Below, piece after piece: positions 1 through 29,769 of a DNA stretch of 37,798 nt; position 1 is the first letter of the stretch, and each line of letters opens with the position of its first letter. A program made the position numbers and the translations under genes. This stretch comes from Bacteroidales bacterium. GTDB taxonomy: Bacteria; Bacteroidota; Bacteroidia; Bacteroidales; Bacteroidaceae. Below the pieces are notes generated by a model, which worked only from the letters and a program-made list of their open reading frames with translations, did not search any database and was not told where the DNA came from. The DNA is taken from contig JAUMXY010000025.1 in assembly GCA_030528885.1 (NCBI GenBank), positions 1-37,798 of the forward strand. The letters are read 5' to 3'.

Positions 1-263
1 TGTTGCTCAGGAACTTATAAATAAAGTTAAATTATAGTGTTGCGGAATTAAGGTATATATGTATTTTTATAAAAGTTATATGAAAATTATTTTTCGTATA
101 TATTTTCGAGGGGGTGCATTTTGCGAATATGAAAGTTGAGAGTTGAAATATACGAGTGAGCGAGTGAGAGGTTTAACTTTTTGTAAAAACAGCCGCAGAC
201 TTGCATCTTAAAGGAATAGTGAAATAGATGTAGTTTCGTTGGCTATGTTGGAAGCCGAAGGCT

Positions 264-291
264 GACAACTGACTACTGTCAACAGACAACG
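264..291 (+). repeat. 7-bp tandem array, 4 units
   Basis: Four consecutive heptamers read GACAACT, GACTACT, GTCAACA and GACAACG. The array is degenerate but keeps an exact 7-bp period. It is one of six related arrays in the window, all in the same orientation. Confidence 0.75.
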
Positions 292-322: not shown

Positions 323-350
323 GTCAACAGACAACAGACAACGGACAACA
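323..350 (+). repeat. 7-bp tandem array, 4 units
   Basis: The units are GTCAACA, GACAACA, GACAACG and GACAACA. The array is followed by a CTAATTGA-type flank that runs directly into the palindromic repeat starting at 361. The two repeat types therefore form one composite unit here. Confidence 0.85.
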
Positions 351-612: not shown

Positions 613-640
613 GACAACAGAAAACGGACAACAGACAACA
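613..640 (+). repeat. 7-bp tandem array, 4 units
   Basis: The units are GACAACA, GAAAACG, GACAACA and GACAACA, followed by GTTTGCTAATTGAT. That right flank is shared with the arrays at 323 and 1258, so the mobile or copied unit is larger than the heptamers alone. Confidence 0.85.
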
Positions 641-737
641 GTTTGCTAATTGATAATTGTTTTCTCACGTAACACGGATTTCTCTTGTCACAAGTGCCTC
701 GTTGGGCTTAAGAGAGAGTTGAGACCCTCATGTGGGG

Positions 738-1230
738 TTATGCTGTTTCCGTTAGCTGGAAGAGTTCCATGAGGTAGTGGTCTTCTTCGGTCATGGTGTT
801 GTCTTGCCATGTGGACATGAGGTGGTCGATGGCAGGGAGCAGGTCCTCGTCTAGGGTCTCTTGGTAGAGGTGGACGAGGAGGTGGGTTTTGTAATTTATT
901 ATTGACAACGGACAACGGACGACAGTTTGGTGCTTCGAGGGAGTCTGCGGCTTCAGCCAATTGGGGCAGGAGGTCGTAGGTCATGTCGGCGGCACGAGTG
1001 AAGAGGTCGTGATTGCGGTAGCCTATCTGGAGGAGGACGAAGATGGTGAGCAGGATTTCTGCTTTTTCTTCGAGGGGGAGGGCTCCTCCTTGGGTGTCAA
1101 GGCGCAGGAAGAGGGTCTTGACGGTATGTTGTGCCTCGTGCCACCGGGATTGATAATCCTGGATGCTGTGGTCTCCGAGGGTGTCGAGGAGAAGCAATTG
1201 GCGGTAGGCTTGGAGGCGAAGGGAGGTCAT
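738..1230 (-). pseudogene. upxZ: UpxZ-like capsule antitermination inhibitor, split between two frames
   Basis: UpxZ proteins (about 160 aa in Bacteroides) stop the UpxY antiterminators of other capsule loci from working, so that one capsule is made at a time. The first about 100 residues read from ATG at 1230. At 904-924 the gene meets a three-unit 7-bp array. The UpxZ-like C-terminus (YKTHLLVHLYQETLDEDLL, then STWQDNTMTEEDHYLMEL) continues one base out of phase, ending with TAA at 738-740. In the starting frame the protein runs on into an unrelated proline- and arginine-rich tail to 688. The position just downstream of upxY supports the call. Losing one 7-bp unit would rejoin the halves without a stop, giving about 160 aa, so this may be an off state rather than a dead gene. 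Confidence 0.7.
904..924 (+). repeat. 7-bp tandem array inside upxZ, 3 units
   Basis: The units are GACAACG, GACAACG and GACGACA, with AATTTATTATT on one side and GTTTGG on the other. The array separates the two reading frames of the UpxZ-like gene. Because 7 is not a multiple of 3, each unit gained or lost changes the frame. Confidence 0.85.
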
Positions 1231-1257: not shown

Positions 1258-1285
1258 GACAACGGACAACAGACAACGGACAGCA
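1258..1285 (+). repeat. 7-bp tandem array, 4 units
   Basis: The units are GACAACG, GACAACA, GACAACG and GACAGCA, followed by GTTTGTCTAATTGA. The array lies in the 195-bp gap between upxY and upxZ. Confidence 0.85.
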
Positions 1286-1425: not shown

Positions 1426-1980
1426 TTATTCGAGGAACTTGAGGTGGGAGGAGGGGACGTAGGCGAGGGCTACGGCGGCTACTCCTTCAAGTTGGATGAC
1501 GACGTGGCGGTTTTTCTTGACGCGTTTGACAGTGCCTTCGATGCCTGCGAAGTCTCCTTCAGTGATGATGACGCGTCTGCCTACTTTGTGGGCTACATCG
1601 GAGTAGTCGAGGAACATGACGCGGTTGTCGGTGATGGAGGCGACGCGTATGAAATTCTCCATTTCCCGTTCGGGTATATGGATGATTTGTGGTCGGATGG
1701 ATGGGTCAAGGGGACGTGTCATCATGTATCGCAACGGGCTGAAGTCGTCTTCGGTCATCTTCAGACTTGTGAGTGTGTCGCGTGTGGAATGGACAAAGAG
1801 CAGGTTGTGAATGGCTGGCACTTGTTCAAAGTGGCGATGGCCGTTGCGCTCTACCAGTTTGGTCTTGATGGGAAGGAATGTTTTGATGTTGAGCTGGTCG
1901 AGACTGGCTTTCACTTTCAGTTCGCGGTTGTAGGTGACACGCATGGGAAACCAGTGCAGTTCGTTGCGGTTATCGCTCAT
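1426..1980 (-). CDS. upxY: UpxY family transcription antiterminator (NusG paralogue)
   Basis: This 184-aa protein has a NusG N-terminal domain at about residues 5-105 (beginning NELHWFPMRVTYNRELKVK) and a C-terminal KOW domain (VGRRVIITEGDFAGIEGTVK). In Bacteroides, UpxY proteins are the first gene of a capsule operon and let RNA polymerase read through a terminator in their own 5' leader. The ATG at 1980 is preferred, because the longer frame to 1992 needs a TTG start. The gene follows a 310-nt structured leader and precedes upxZ, the normal order in capsule loci. No polysaccharide genes are visible before the left window edge. Confidence 0.9.
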   Translation of the reverse strand: MSDNRNELHWFPMRVTYNRELKVKASLDQLNIKTFLPIKTKLVERNGHRHFEQVPAIHNLLFVHSTRDTLTSLKMTEDDFSPLRYMMTRPLDPSIRPQIIHIPEREMENFIRVASITDNRVMFLDYSDVAHKVGRRVIITEGDFAGIEGTVKRVKKNRHVVIQLEGVAAVALAYVPSSHLKFLE

Positions 1981-3324: not shown

Positions 3325-3380
3325 GACAACGGTCAACAGTCAACAGACAACAGACGACGGACAACAGACGATAGATAATG
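3325..3380 (+). repeat. 7-bp tandem array in the BASS gene leader, 8 units
   Basis: The units are GACAACG, GTCAACA, GTCAACA, GACAACA, GACGACG, GACAACA, GACGATA and GATAATG. This is the longest array in the window. It ends 8 bp before the transporter's ATG and could be read through in frame from a GTG at 3317. It is much more likely to be untranslated leader. Confidence 0.8.
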
Positions 3381-20290: not shown

Positions 20291-21517
20291 TTATTCTGCT
20301 GAGTAGTCAATCTTGCTCATGCGTACGTAGGTAGCGTAGCGGTGCTGTGCTGCCTTCTTAGCCGCATCGAAGAGCTCCTGAGCGTCTGTTGGGCATACCT
20401 TCTTGAGTGAGAGGTAACGAACCTCGCCGTCGAGGAATGCCTGGAAGTTGTCCCAGTTTGGAGCCTTTGAGTCGAGCTGGAATGGGTTTTGGCCCTGTTC
20501 AGCAAGACGTGGGTCGAAGCGCCAGAGGTGCCAGTAACCGCACTCAACAGCCTTAGCCTCTTCTGCTTGACTCTTGCCCATGCCGCCCTTAGCCTTGAGG
20601 CCGTGGTTGATACATGGAGCGTAAGCGATGACGAGTGATGGGCCTGGGTATGCTTCTGCCTCACGGATTGCCTTGAGGCACTGTGCGTTGTCTGCGCCCA
20701 TAGCTACCTGTGCTACGTAAACATAGCCGTAGGTTGACTGCATGAGGCCGAGGTCCTTCTTGGTGATGCGCTTACCGCCTGCAGCGAACTGTGCGATAGC
20801 ACCGATTGGAGTAGCCTTTGAAGATTGACCGCCTGTGTTAGAATAAACCTCTGTGTCGATAACGAAGATGTTGATGTCCTCGCCAGATGCCAGTGCGTGG
20901 TCAAGACCGCCGTAGCCGATATCGTAAGAAGCACCGTCACCACCGATAATCCACTGTGAACGCTTTACGAGGTAGTGAGAGAGTTCAGAGAGCTGCTTGC
21001 ATACAGGACAGCCAGCATTGCGACCTGCCTCGATGGCTGGAGCGAGCTTAGCTGCTGCTGCCTTAGAAGCGTCTGCGTTGTCCTTGCCTGCAATCCACTC
21101 TTCTGCTGCTGCCTTGAACTCTGCTGGAGTGCCTTCCTGTGCGCAAGCCTCGTTGAGGAGCGCTACGATGCGTGCGCGCATCTTCTTGTTGGCGATTGCC
21201 ATACCAAGACCGTATTCGCAGAAGTCTTCGAAGAGTGAGTTAGACCATGCTGGACCCTGACCCTTTGCGTTCTTAGTGTATGGAGTGGATGGGATGGAAC
21301 CAGAGTAGATGGAAGAGCAACCTGTAGCGTTAGCCACCATCTGACGCTCACCGAAGAGTTGAGAAATCAACTTCACGTAAGGAGTTTCACCGCAACCAGA
21401 GCATGCGCCTGAGAACTCGAAGAGTGGAGTGGCGAACTGGCTCACACGTGGGTTGGCCTTGTAGTCGATGAGGTCTTGCTTGCTGGCCACGTTCTTCACG
21501 CAGTAGTCCCAGTTCTT
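20291..21517 (-). repeat. Direct repeat, copy A (nifJ 3' end)
   Basis: This 1227-bp segment aligns without gaps to 26215-27441. Similarity begins at the codons for KNWDYC and stops at the stop codon; sequences on both outer sides are unrelated. A stretch of 167 bp (21108-21274) is identical to 27032-27198, although the rest carries frequent silent differences. Confidence 0.9.
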
Positions 21518-21595
21518 GGCCTCCTGCTTCATGTCTTCGGTGTCGGGGTTCTTGCTAAAGCAAGCGCCCCTTTGAACCGAGCGGCACGGATCCAT
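20291..21595 (-). pseudogene. nifJ: 3' fragment of pyruvate:ferredoxin oxidoreductase (second copy)
   Basis: From 21517 down to the stop at 20291 this matches residues 777-1184 of the complete NifJ at 26215-29769 with no gaps and only about seven amino-acid differences. It holds the C-terminal thiamine-diphosphate domain (GDGASYDIGYGGLDHALASG) with the ACSGCGETPY cysteines. It lacks the pyruvate-binding domains and the two-cluster ferredoxin domain, so it cannot be active alone. The first about 26 residues (MDPCRSVQRGACFSK, then NPDTEDMKQEA) do not match the other copy. The NPDTEDMKQEA part looks like an authentic NifJ linker of another allele, while the start is junction sequence. At DNA level the copies differ by very roughly a tenth, mostly at third positions. 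Confidence 0.85.
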
Positions 21596-26214: not shown

Positions 26215-27441
26215 TTACTCTGCAGAGTAGTCAATCTTACTCATGCGCACGTAGGTAGCGTAGCGGTGCTGTGCTGCCTTCTTGGCTGCGTCGAAGAGTT
26301 CCTGAGCCTCGTTTGGACATACCTTCTTGAGAGAGAGGTAGCGAACTTCGCCGTCGAGGAATGCCTGGAAGTTATCCCAGTTAGGAGCCTTGGAGTCGAG
26401 TTGGAATGGGTTCTTGCCTTCCTCGGCGAGACGTGGGTCGAAACGCCAGAGGTGCCAGTAACCGCACTCAACTGCCTTGGCCTCTTCTGCCTGAGACTTG
26501 CCCATGCCGCCCTTAGCCTTGAGGCCGTGGTTGATACATGGAGCGTAGGCGATGACGAGTGATGGGCCGGGATAAGCCTCTGCTTCGCGGAGTGCCTTGA
26601 GACACTGTGCATTGTCGGCACCCATTGCCACCTGAGCCACATAGACATAGCCGTAGGTTGACTGCATGAGACCGAGGTCTTTCTTGGTGATGCGCTTGCC
26701 GCCTGCTGCGAACTGAGCGATGGCACCGATAGGAGTGGCCTTTGAAGACTGACCACCTGTGTTGGAGTAAACCTCGGTGTCGATAACGAAGATGTTGATG
26801 TCCTCGCCAGATGCAAGTGCGTGGTCAAGACCACCGTAGCCAATATCGTAAGAAGCACCGTCACCACCGATAATCCACTGGCTGCGCTTCACGAGGTAGT
26901 GAGAAAGCTCAGAGAGCTGCTTGCAGATTGGGCAACCTGCGTTGCGACCAGCCTCGATAGCTGGAGCGAGCTTAGCTGCTGCTGCCTTAGATGCGTCAGC
27001 GTTGTCCTTGCCGGCAATCCACTCTTCAGCGGCTGCCTTGAACTCTGCTGGAGTGCCTTCCTGTGCGCAAGCCTCGTTGAGGAGCGCTACGATGCGTGCG
27101 CGCATCTTCTTGTTGGCGATTGCCATACCAAGACCGTATTCGCAGAAGTCTTCGAAGAGTGAGTTAGACCATGCTGGACCCTGACCCTTTGCGTTCTTTG
27201 TATATGGAGTTGAAGGGATTGAGCCTGAGTAGATAGATGAGCAACCTGTTGCGTTTGCTACCATCTGGCGGTCGCCGAAGAGCTGAGAAATGAGCTTCAC
27301 GTATGGAGTTTCACCACAGCCAGAGCATGCGCCTGAGAACTCGAAGAGTGGAGTTGCGAACTGGCTGACACGTGGGTTTGCCTTGTAGTCGATGAGATCC
27401 TGCTTAGAAGCTACGTTCTTTACGCAGTAGTCCCAGTTCTT
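26215..27441 (-). repeat. Direct repeat, copy B (nifJ 3' end)
   Basis: This is the 3' end of the complete nifJ and the partner of 20291-21517. The two copies point the same way and enclose the restriction-modification and NACHT genes. Recombination between them would delete the island and leave one intact nifJ. Confidence 0.9.
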
Positions 27442-29769
27442 CTGCTCAGGAAGCTGGCTTTCGAGGCCAACCATCTTGAGTGCCTTGTTGCCCTTCTTGC
27501 CTGGACATACGTCAACACAGTTGCCGCAGCCGAGACAGTCCATAACGCTTACCTGCATACGGAACTTCATGCCCTTGAGTGCTGGTGGAGCTACCATATC
27601 GAGTGTTGCGCTCTCGAAGCCTGCAACTTCTTTGTCGTCCATGACGAATGGGCGGATGGCTGCGTGAGGACAAACGAATGCACACTTGTTGCACTGGATA
27701 CAGTTCTCTGAATCCCATTCTGGAACGAATGCAGAAACACCGCGCTTTTCGTATGCTGCTGTGCCCTGTTCCCACATACCGTCTTCGTAGCCCTTGTAAG
27801 CTGATACAGGGAGGAGGTCTCCGTTCTGTGCGTTGATTGGGCGAACAATCTTGTTGATGAACTCTGGGTCGTCGTTTGCCTCAACTGGGTCTGCAGGAAG
27901 ATCCTTCCATGCTGGGTCGATGTCGAGTTTCTTGTATTCGCCACCACGGTCAACTGCAGCATAGTTCATGTTAACGATGTCTTCGCCCTTCTTTCCGTAT
28001 GACTTCACGATTGCCTTCTTCATCTGCTCTACCGCGAGCTCAACAGGAATAACCTCTGTGATGCGGAAGAATGCTGACTGGAGGATGGTGTTTGTGCGGT
28101 TGCCAAGACCAATTTCCTGAGCAATCTTTGTTGCATTGATGTAGTAAACGGTGATGTTCTTCTCTGCGAAATACTTCTTGATGTTGTTTGGCAGGAAGTT
28201 GACAAGTTCCTCACCCTCGAAGATGGTGTTGAGGAGGAACTGACCGTTCTGACGGAGACCGCGAAGCACGTCATACATGCGGAGGTAAGCCTGTACGTGG
28301 CATGCTACGAAGTTTGGAGTCTTGATCTGATATGTTGAACGGATTGGCGTATCGCCGAAACGGAGGTGTGAGCAAGTGAAACCGCCTGACTTCTTTGAGT
28401 CGTAAGAGAAGTAAGCCTGGCAATACTTGTTGGTGTTGTCACCGATAATTTTTACAGAGTTCTTGTTGGCACCTACAGTACCGTCTGCGCCAAGACCGAA
28501 GAACTTAGCTTCGAAGATACCTTCGCCGCCGAGTGCCATTTCCTCTTCGAGTGGGAGAGAACGGAATGTCACGTCGTCGACGATACCGAGAGTGAAGTGG
28601 TTCTTTGGTTCTGGAAGTTCAAGATTCTTGTAAACAGTGAGAATCATTGTTGGAGTTACGTCTGCTGAACCAAGTCCATAGCGTCCGCCTACGATGATTG
28701 GGGCATTTTCCTGACCGTAGAATGCATCCTTCACATCAAGGTAGAGTGGTTCACCGTTTGCTCCAGGCTCCTTGGTACGGTCGAGGACTGCGATGCGTTT
28801 AACAGATGCAGGGATGGCAGCGAGCAGGCGCTCTACAGAGAATGGACGGTAGAGGTGTACTGACACCATACCATACTTCTTGCCGTTTGCATTGGCGTAG
28901 TCGATAGCCTCGCGTGCAGCTTCTGTAGCAGAACCCATGAGGATGATACACTCTGTAGCGTCTTCTGCTCCATAGTATGTGAATGGCTTGTATTCGCGGC
29001 CTGTAATCTTTGAGATGGCTTCCATGTACTTTTCAACAGCAGCCGGAACCTCATCGTAGAATGGGTTACAAGACTCGCGATGTGCGAAGAATGTTTCAGG
29101 GTTTTCTGCCATACCCTTAGCCTCTGGACGCTCAGGAGAGAGTGCGCGGCTACGGAATTCAGAAACCTTATCCATAGGAACGAGTGGACGGATGTCTTCC
29201 ATGTCCATCTCTTCAATCTTGTGGTATTCGTGAGATGTGCGGAAACCGTCGAAGAAGTTGATGAATGGAACGCGAGTCTCAAGCGCTGCCAGATGAGCAA
29301 CAGCTGAAAGGTCCATCACTTCCTGTACTGAGCCTTCGCAGAGCATTGCGAAACCTGTCTGGCGGCAAGCCATTACGTCGCCATGGTCGCCAAAGATACA
29401 GAGTGAGTGGCTTGCTATAGTACGTGCTGAAACGTGGAATACGGATGGAAGCAATTCGCCAGCAATCTTGTACATGTTAGGAATCATCAGAAGAAGACCC
29501 TGTGACGCAGTGAAGGTAGTGGTGAGTGCACCAGCTTGGAGAGAACCGTGTACGGCACCTGCAGCTCCTGCTTCTGACTGCATTTCCTGAACGAGAACTG
29601 TGTCGCCAAAAAGATTCTTGCGACCTGCAACAGCCCACTCATCCACGTGCTCTGCCATTGGAGACGATGGGGTGATAGGGTAGATGGCAGCAACCTCTGA
29701 GAACATGTATGCTACGTGAGCAGCAGCGGTGTTACCATCACAAGTAATAAATTTCTTTTCTTTACTCAT
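26215..29769 (-). CDS. nifJ: Pyruvate:ferredoxin (flavodoxin) oxidoreductase
   Basis: The 1184-aa single-chain enzyme converts pyruvate and CoA to acetyl-CoA, CO2 and reduced ferredoxin in anaerobic metabolism. The N-terminus (CDGNTAAAHVAYMFSEVAAIYPITPSSPMAE in part) is the pyruvate domain. A two-cluster ferredoxin domain starts at Cys690 (CIQCNKCAFVCP) and Cys745 (CLGCGNCVDVCP). The C-terminal thiamine-diphosphate domain includes GDGASYDIGYGG and the ACSGCGE cysteines of the third cluster. The length is full for the family. It begins 52 bp after the AAA ATPase gene with no clear promoter of its own. Its last 408 codons are duplicated at 20291-21517, so this 3' end may have been exchanged when the island arrived. 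Confidence 0.95.
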   Translation of the reverse strand: MSKEKKFITCDGNTAAAHVAYMFSEVAAIYPITPSSPMAEHVDEWAVAGRKNLFGDTVLVQEMQSEAGAAGAVHGSLQAGALTTTFTASQGLLLMIPNMYKIAGELLPSVFHVSARTIASHSLCIFGDHGDVMACRQTGFAMLCEGSVQEVMDLSAVAHLAALETRVPFINFFDGFRTSHEYHKIEEMDMEDIRPLVPMDKVSEFRSRALSPERPEAKGMAENPETFFAHRESCNPFYDEVPAAVEKYMEAISKITGREYKPFTYYGAEDATECIILMGSATEAAREAIDYANANGKKYGMVSVHLYRPFSVERLLAAIPASVKRIAVLDRTKEPGANGEPLYLDVKDAFYGQENAPIIVGGRYGLGSADVTPTMILTVYKNLELPEPKNHFTLGIVDDVTFRSLPLEEEMALGGEGIFEAKFFGLGADGTVGANKNSVKIIGDNTNKYCQAYFSYDSKKSGGFTCSHLRFGDTPIRSTYQIKTPNFVACHVQAYLRMYDVLRGLRQNGQFLLNTIFEGEELVNFLPNNIKKYFAEKNITVYYINATKIAQEIGLGNRTNTILQSAFFRITEVIPVELAVEQMKKAIVKSYGKKGEDIVNMNYAAVDRGGEYKKLDIDPAWKDLPADPVEANDDPEFINKIVRPINAQNGDLLPVSAYKGYEDGMWEQGTAAYEKRGVSAFVPEWDSENCIQCNKCAFVCPHAAIRPFVMDDKEVAGFESATLDMVAPPALKGMKFRMQVSVMDCLGCGNCVDVCPGKKGNKALKMVGLESQLPEQKNWDYCVKNVASKQDLIDYKANPRVSQFATPLFEFSGACSGCGETPYVKLISQLFGDRQMVANATGCSSIYSGSIPSTPYTKNAKGQGPAWSNSLFEDFCEYGLGMAIANKKMRARIVALLNEACAQEGTPAEFKAAAEEWIAGKDNADASKAAAAKLAPAIEAGRNAGCPICKQLSELSHYLVKRSQWIIGGDGASYDIGYGGLDHALASGEDINIFVIDTEVYSNTGGQSSKATPIGAIAQFAAGGKRITKKDLGLMQSTYGYVYVAQVAMGADNAQCLKALREAEAYPGPSLVIAYAPCINHGLKAKGGMGKSQAEEAKAVECGYWHLWRFDPRLAEEGKNPFQLDSKAPNWDNFQAFLDGEVRYLSLKKVCPNEAQELFDAAKKAAQHRYATYVRMSKIDYSAE

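Follow-up and report, generated by a model that had tools for sequence, protein, structure and literature searches.

A Coding Heptanucleotide Array in the Frame-Split upxZ Gene of a Bacteroidaceae Capsule Locus, Predicted to Be Off

Organization of the upxZ Locus

The DNA analyzed here, referred to as the window, comprises bases 1–37,798 of contig C3 (43,135 bases), which belongs to a draft genome (G000) of 2.62 Mb in 73 contigs. On the minus strand, an open frame runs from 1230 to 688, directly after a UpxY-like gene. A second UpxZ piece is read on the same strand in a different frame, up to its own stop codon (Table 1). As the contig starts at window base 1, the capsule genes expected downstream of upxZ fall outside the assembled piece. 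An inverted repeat of the invertible-promoter type was sought upstream of upxY, at 1990–2720, and none was found.

Table 1. Position, strand and supporting evidence of the features at the upxZ locus and of the heptamer arrays around it.
Feature	Position	Strand	Evidence or remark
Loose intergenic heptamer array	262–290		Tandem Repeats Finder
Intergenic heptamer array downstream of upxZ	325–350		Tandem Repeats Finder
Intergenic heptamer array downstream of upxZ	613–641		Tandem Repeats Finder
Out-of-frame tail after the N-terminal piece	688–903	-	Stop at 688–690
upxZ C-terminal piece, other frame	741–902	-	Stop at 738–740; profile match C3:741–938, E 5.2e-32
Coding heptanucleotide array, inter-helix linker	904–924	-	2.4 perfect units at 904–920, then a degenerate unit
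upxZ N-terminal piece, 100 codons to the linker	~931–1230	-	Profile match C3:892–1233, E 1.0e-52
Heptamer array in the upxY-upxZ gap	1258–1282		Tandem Repeats Finder; present in G018 too
upxY-like antiterminator gene (NusG/KOW)	1426–1980	-	Directly upstream of upxZ; Pfam NusG 7.8e-09, KOW 1.2e-04
Heptamer array outside the upxYZ pair	3325–3369		Tandem Repeats Finder

According to the original prediction, the UpxZ-like frame from 1230 meets a repeat array, beyond which the C-terminus resumes one base out of phase. This was confirmed, as a profile built from relatives matched the two pieces independently and in different frames. The two matches overlap at the array because the cyclic heptapeptide encoded by a 7-bp repeat does not depend on the frame; for the CCGTTGT repeat it is PLSVVRC. 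The predicted frame arithmetic was likewise sound: the frames lie one base apart and the unit is 7 bp long, so that the relation between the frames is preserved only when the unit number changes by a multiple of three. The unit count fared less well. An array is indeed present where three CGTTGTC units had been proposed, but only the first part of it was delimited as perfect repeats by Tandem Repeats Finder, the third unit being degenerate.

The N-terminal piece is 91% identical to the intact homologue P0002 over residues 1–112. The C-terminal piece is undecayed, with 46 of the 47 residues from LLVH to its end identical to the intact homologues P0007 and P0009, and no second lesion was found in either piece. 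Beyond the N-terminal piece, the out-of-frame tail has no relative among the 86 homologues collected (best E 6.7).

Elsewhere in the window, a frame at 20291–21595 was seen by eye to repeat nearly verbatim a large part of a long pyruvate:ferredoxin oxidoreductase-like protein (26215–29769); DNA methyltransferase-like and NTPase-like genes lie between the two.

Assignment to the UpxZ Family

No match to PF06603 was obtained for the 180-aa open frame, for its first 99 residues or for the C-terminal piece. Pfam and NCBIfam returned nothing usable for the upxZ pieces or for 34 relatives, again with no PF06603 match, and membership was therefore assessed from profile searches, fold comparison and distant relatives. 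The homologue set, obtained by searching with the aligned relatives, consisted of 86 proteins. Eight wider relatives were scanned against the Pfam UpxZ model (cut-off 21.2 bits), which P0081 (34.6 bits) and P0085 (29 bits) passed and P0084 (16.7 bits) did not; P0068 carries a precomputed PF06603 label, yet gave no match on scanning.

The solved UpxZ structure 4epz was matched by the clade profile with E 9e-4 and by a wider profile including P0081 and P0085 with E 7.7e-10. It was also the top Foldseek match (probability 1.00, TM 0.50, E 0.02) of the structure modeled for P0002, although the model itself is weak (pLDDT 60). By position, upxZ of the window comes second, after upxY, in the arrangement that opens a capsule operon. 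In the related genome G018, upxY and upxZ are followed by genes for a polysaccharide flippase, hexapeptide transferases, a Wzy-type ligase and glycosyltransferases; among ten genes tested downstream of this pair, eight had polysaccharide-synthesis Pfam matches and two had none.

Because of the profile matches to 4epz, the fold match, the distant relatives passing PF06603 and the capsule-operon position in G018, the gene was filed as upxZ. By homology it is a UpxZ-family gene, though the Pfam model does not call it. The expectation of a UpxZ-family gene beside upxY with an array within it was thus supported. A rejoined protein lacking full-length similarity to UpxZ was not what was found, each piece matching the family across its own part. 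No UpxZ relative turned up when viral contigs were scanned.

Repeat Units in the Inter-Helix Linker

In array-free relatives, a turn of about six residues separates two helices (e.g., LLPHL-SDSKLK-CHLLVHLYQET); its counterpart in the alignment with 4epz is the turn PASLLK. In the clade of the window, translated repeats take up this inter-helix turn. The distance between the end of the helix and the QET motif, measurable by script in 76 of the 86 homologues, ranged from 15 to 65 residues. In the 22 homologues that share their flanks, spacer length was 11 residues in 12 proteins, 18 in nine and 25 in one, so that it changed in steps of exactly seven residues, equal to three units. One of the nine proteins with 18 residues, P0023, reaches that length via a different module.

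The heptapeptide was recognized in at least 59 of the 86 homologues, and all 78 motif hits fell inside the linker; the patterns were written post hoc, after the linkers had been read, and missed P0003, P0017 and P0022. Intact upxZ relatives exist among the homologues, and the C-terminal domain, judged by motif, was kept in 84 of the 86. The remaining two proteins, P0035 and P0077, stop inside the linker, which may instead reflect the end of the contig, since their contigs are short (1,527 and 815 bases, respectively). As the protein library lacks the OFF product of the window itself, this count of two in 86 may under-report OFF forms.

The upxZ linkers of two further loci, L031 (G014:C93) and L027 (G059:C11), hold other dispersed repeats, which are palindrome-like. 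On this ground, the upxZ linker seems to accept repeats of several kinds.

Comparison with Related Genomes

The upxZ orthologue of G018 is intact and in frame and shares its flanks with the window; the arrays of the two differ cleanly by 14 bp, equal to two units. The idea that all relatives might carry the same three units was therefore not upheld, the unit number differing between relatives by whole units. A simple disabling insertion, put forward as the plainer alternative, no longer looks like the plain one, since the nearest relatives have this array too, in a longer version and in frame. DNA was read for four heptamer-bearing upxZ loci, of which three were in frame and only that of the window was out of frame. 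The genome of the window holds a second upxY-upxZ pair, in frame, on contig C48, together with two more UpxY/NusG-like genes.

Other arrays also differed between the two genomes. Relative to G018, the window was 7 bp shorter at 3325–3369 and 14 bp longer at the loose array at 262–290, and at the C53/C28 locus the arrays differed by 7 bp between nearly identical flanks. No clean unit step was seen for the array in the upxY-upxZ gap or for that of the second upxZ (C48 compared with C67). The whole-unit differences at several of these arrays indicate that unit change is recurrent in the lineage.

When compared with G018, dN/dS was not low, reaching 0.48 for the N-terminal and 0.70 for the C-terminal piece, each from few sites. 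These values did not distinguish a pseudogene from a gene that had only recently gone OFF, and dN/dS was rejected as a discriminator between the two.

Dispersed Heptanucleotide Arrays

The pattern ACAACNGACAACNGAC was matched 19 times in the genome of the window, compared with 3 matches for the same pattern read backward as a control. Across the 45 genomes of the genus, the pattern occurred in 12 and the control in 13, with 135 and 23 matches overall, respectively. The excess over the control was confined to a few genomes, namely G002 (34 vs. 1), G018 (27 vs. 2), G042 (22 vs. 0), G003 (16 vs. 4), G055 (7 vs. 0) and G000 itself. The upxZ array is one member of a dispersed heptamer family, whose unit recurs in the intergenic arrays of Table 1 and, in frame, within other genes of the genus. 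The same pattern matched 96 stretches in viral contigs, from which nothing was drawn. Freedom from stop codons on both strands was considered as a special feature of the repeat and rejected, as 50% of all heptamers share it. The repeat itself may interrupt assembly, as suggested by two contigs of the genome, C29 and C53, that start within a heptamer array.

Array-bearing gene sites were picked from the pattern list (14 in G002, 6 in G018, plus those of G000) and represent examples, not a census. For nine of the ten array-bearing frames scanned, a Pfam family was found; other arrays among those picked were intergenic or at gene ends. In PrmC of G002 (L190/L176:2060–2917), the array lies within the matched domain, just before the NPPY motif. 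The array is also within the matched domain in a SpoIID-like protein of G002 and, in both G000 and G018, in a nucleotidyltransferase. Arrays were located in or near linkers in two ABC-F ATPases and a SNF2-type protein and, in a DUF4230 and a DUF6048 protein of G002, in the C-terminal tail.

A comparison of 30 PrmC orthologues in the genus revealed two strongly variable loops. In several orthologues these take the form of heptapeptide repeats, built on this unit or on similar ones; the loops of G000 and G018 are among those without them. In this conserved single-copy methyltransferase, heptapeptide repeats occupy the two loops in the G002 gene, in L216 (G042), and in L196 and L201, and are absent from other genomes of the genus. 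In the nucleotidyltransferase (PF14907; L059:1167–2261 on G000:C48 and L044:150–1274 on G018:C60), the heptamer sits at the same place in both genomes and is read from the other strand (TTDNRQ). In G002, the frames of the two ABC-F, SpoIID-like, SNF2-type, DUF4230 and DUF6048 proteins carry their arrays in frame (L180, L184, L185, L181, L172 and L179).

Discussion

The reading preferred here, with a probability of roughly 0.68, is that a loss of units by slippage put upxZ out of frame. At its present length, the array leaves the C-terminal third out of frame, and the prediction for upxZ is accordingly OFF. In this proposal, a capsule-locus upxZ has an inter-helix linker built of a coding heptanucleotide array, and the loss of two units, likely by slippage, would have displaced the C-terminal third. 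As a 7-bp unit shifts the frame and three units add seven residues, relatives keep three-unit steps, while other steps break the gene. UpxZ has been described as an inhibitor of the UpxY proteins of other capsule loci in other Bacteroides (PMC7315117, PMC12118408). By extension from this published role, an OFF upxZ would have lost its function, and another capsule locus, such as that of the C48 upxY-upxZ pair, may thereby be relieved of inhibition.

Two features of slippage-prone genes were found at the locus. A tandem unit of 7 bp, not divisible by three, lies within the coding frame, and relatives differ by whole units, both in the 14 bp separating the window from G018 and in the seven-residue steps among the 22 homologues. 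Several observations speak against unit loss by slippage. Only a single genome is out of frame, and it is a draft assembly; 2.4 perfect units would probably make a poor slippage substrate; the upxY-upxZ gap and the C48/C67 comparison gave no clean unit steps; and dN/dS was not low. In addition, the frame was off in only two of the 86 homologues, both on short contigs, compared with 42 of 64 genomes for the freely switching neuO.

Unit loss in upxZ could be either one-way or reversible, and both forms fall under the preferred reading. The rarity of OFF forms and the shortness of the array argue against fast switching, and on this account one-way loss was given a chance slightly short of even and reversible variation was considered somewhat unlikely. 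If the loss was one-way, upxZ would be a plain pseudogene that neither reverts nor serves as a switch. The short remaining array, the apparently uncommon OFF state (with the C-terminal domain kept nearly throughout the homologues) and the dN/dS values are consistent with this, but a decaying gene is not what the pieces look like, given the lack of a second lesion and the nearly unchanged C-terminal residues. The recurrence of whole-unit differences between G000 and G018 at several other places also points away from a single dead end.

If unit number is instead reversible within the population, it would toggle UpxZ and, with it, the exclusion between capsule loci, in the manner of neuO. A coding heptamer array with a frame-breaking unit, the whole-unit differences between relatives, the neuO precedent itself (PMC13001214) and the termination of P0035 and P0077 inside the linker are in line with such phase variation. 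OFF forms, at two of 86 in a library that may under-report them, are nevertheless rare, and the array is short.

An error of assembly, in which two units were lost because of similar arrays in the sample, is improbable. The genome is a draft with many similar arrays, two of its contigs start inside one, and tandem repeats are known to cause misassembly (PMC6868369). Yet even a short read would span the upxZ array, which is flanked on both sides by unique upxZ sequence, and the frame is kept at the three other heptamer-bearing upxZ loci, which come from comparable assemblies. A restoration of the full UpxZ protein by ribosomal frameshifting at the array is highly improbable: a shift anywhere in the repeat would yield a similar linker, the heptapeptide being identical in all frames, but the intact relatives have no need of it, and inspection of the site by eye showed neither a stop codon nor a recognized shift signal.

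A broader proposal, which we regard as unlikely, is that in this ruminant-gut Bacteroidaceae genus the heptanucleotide repeat is self-spreading and writes heptapeptide linkers into the surface turns of conserved proteins, the unit count in upxZ serving as an ON/OFF switch of a one-cell-one-capsule rule. In-frame 7-bp repeats in proteins as conserved as PrmC, ABC-F ATPases and a nucleotidyltransferase are in any case an unusual source of loop variation, and they leave several genes of the genus exposed to frame-breaking changes in length. Capsule choice in Bacteroidales switches via invertible promoters (PMC12118408) and through cross-inhibition between UpxY and UpxZ (PMC7315117, PMC12118408). 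If unit loss in upxZ is as proposed, a slippage-prone array in the inhibitor UpxZ would be a further layer and could free capsule loci from the exclusion that operates between them.

Comparison with Known Systems

No description of any array of repeats within upxZ was found in the titles and abstracts of the literature searched. In comparison with the UpxZ family (PF06603; 4epz from Bacteroides uniformis), the window gene is alike in profile, in fold and in following upxY where a capsule operon begins. It differs in that the inter-helix linker of its clade, about six residues in array-free relatives, consists of translated dispersed repeats, and in that the window copy is split between frames.

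Among dispersed heptamers, TAACTGA has been reported from Beggiatoaceae, Cyanobacteria and five Bacteroidetes (PMC4679880), and GGGAATC from Xanthomonas (PMC4692102). Like the heptamer of the window, both are tandem, scattered over the genome and variable in length between relatives. They have other unit sequences and, as described in these sources, are mainly intergenic, whereas several arrays of the present heptamer lie in conserved coding genes. The Rickettsia palindromic elements (PMC2229807) are likewise dispersed repeats found both between genes and fused in frame within genes of conserved proteins; these elements are described as palindromes of 105–146 bp, in contrast to the tandem heptamer array of the window with its unit-wise changes in length.

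The invertible capsule promoters of Bacteroides (PMC12118408) also switch capsule expression in Bacteroidales, but as described there they do so by recombinase-driven inversion, not by a change of units in a coding array as proposed for upxZ. Among known switches, neuO of E. coli K1 comes closest; it acts in acetylation of the K1 capsule, and its long array, at the 5' end of the gene, is reported to hold 3–53 units (PMC13001214). Both genes act on the capsule and share a coding heptanucleotide array, a modulo-three frame rule and the equivalence of three units to seven residues. In contrast to neuO as described in that source, the array of upxZ is short, lies in the middle of the gene and belongs to a regulator, and OFF forms are rare.
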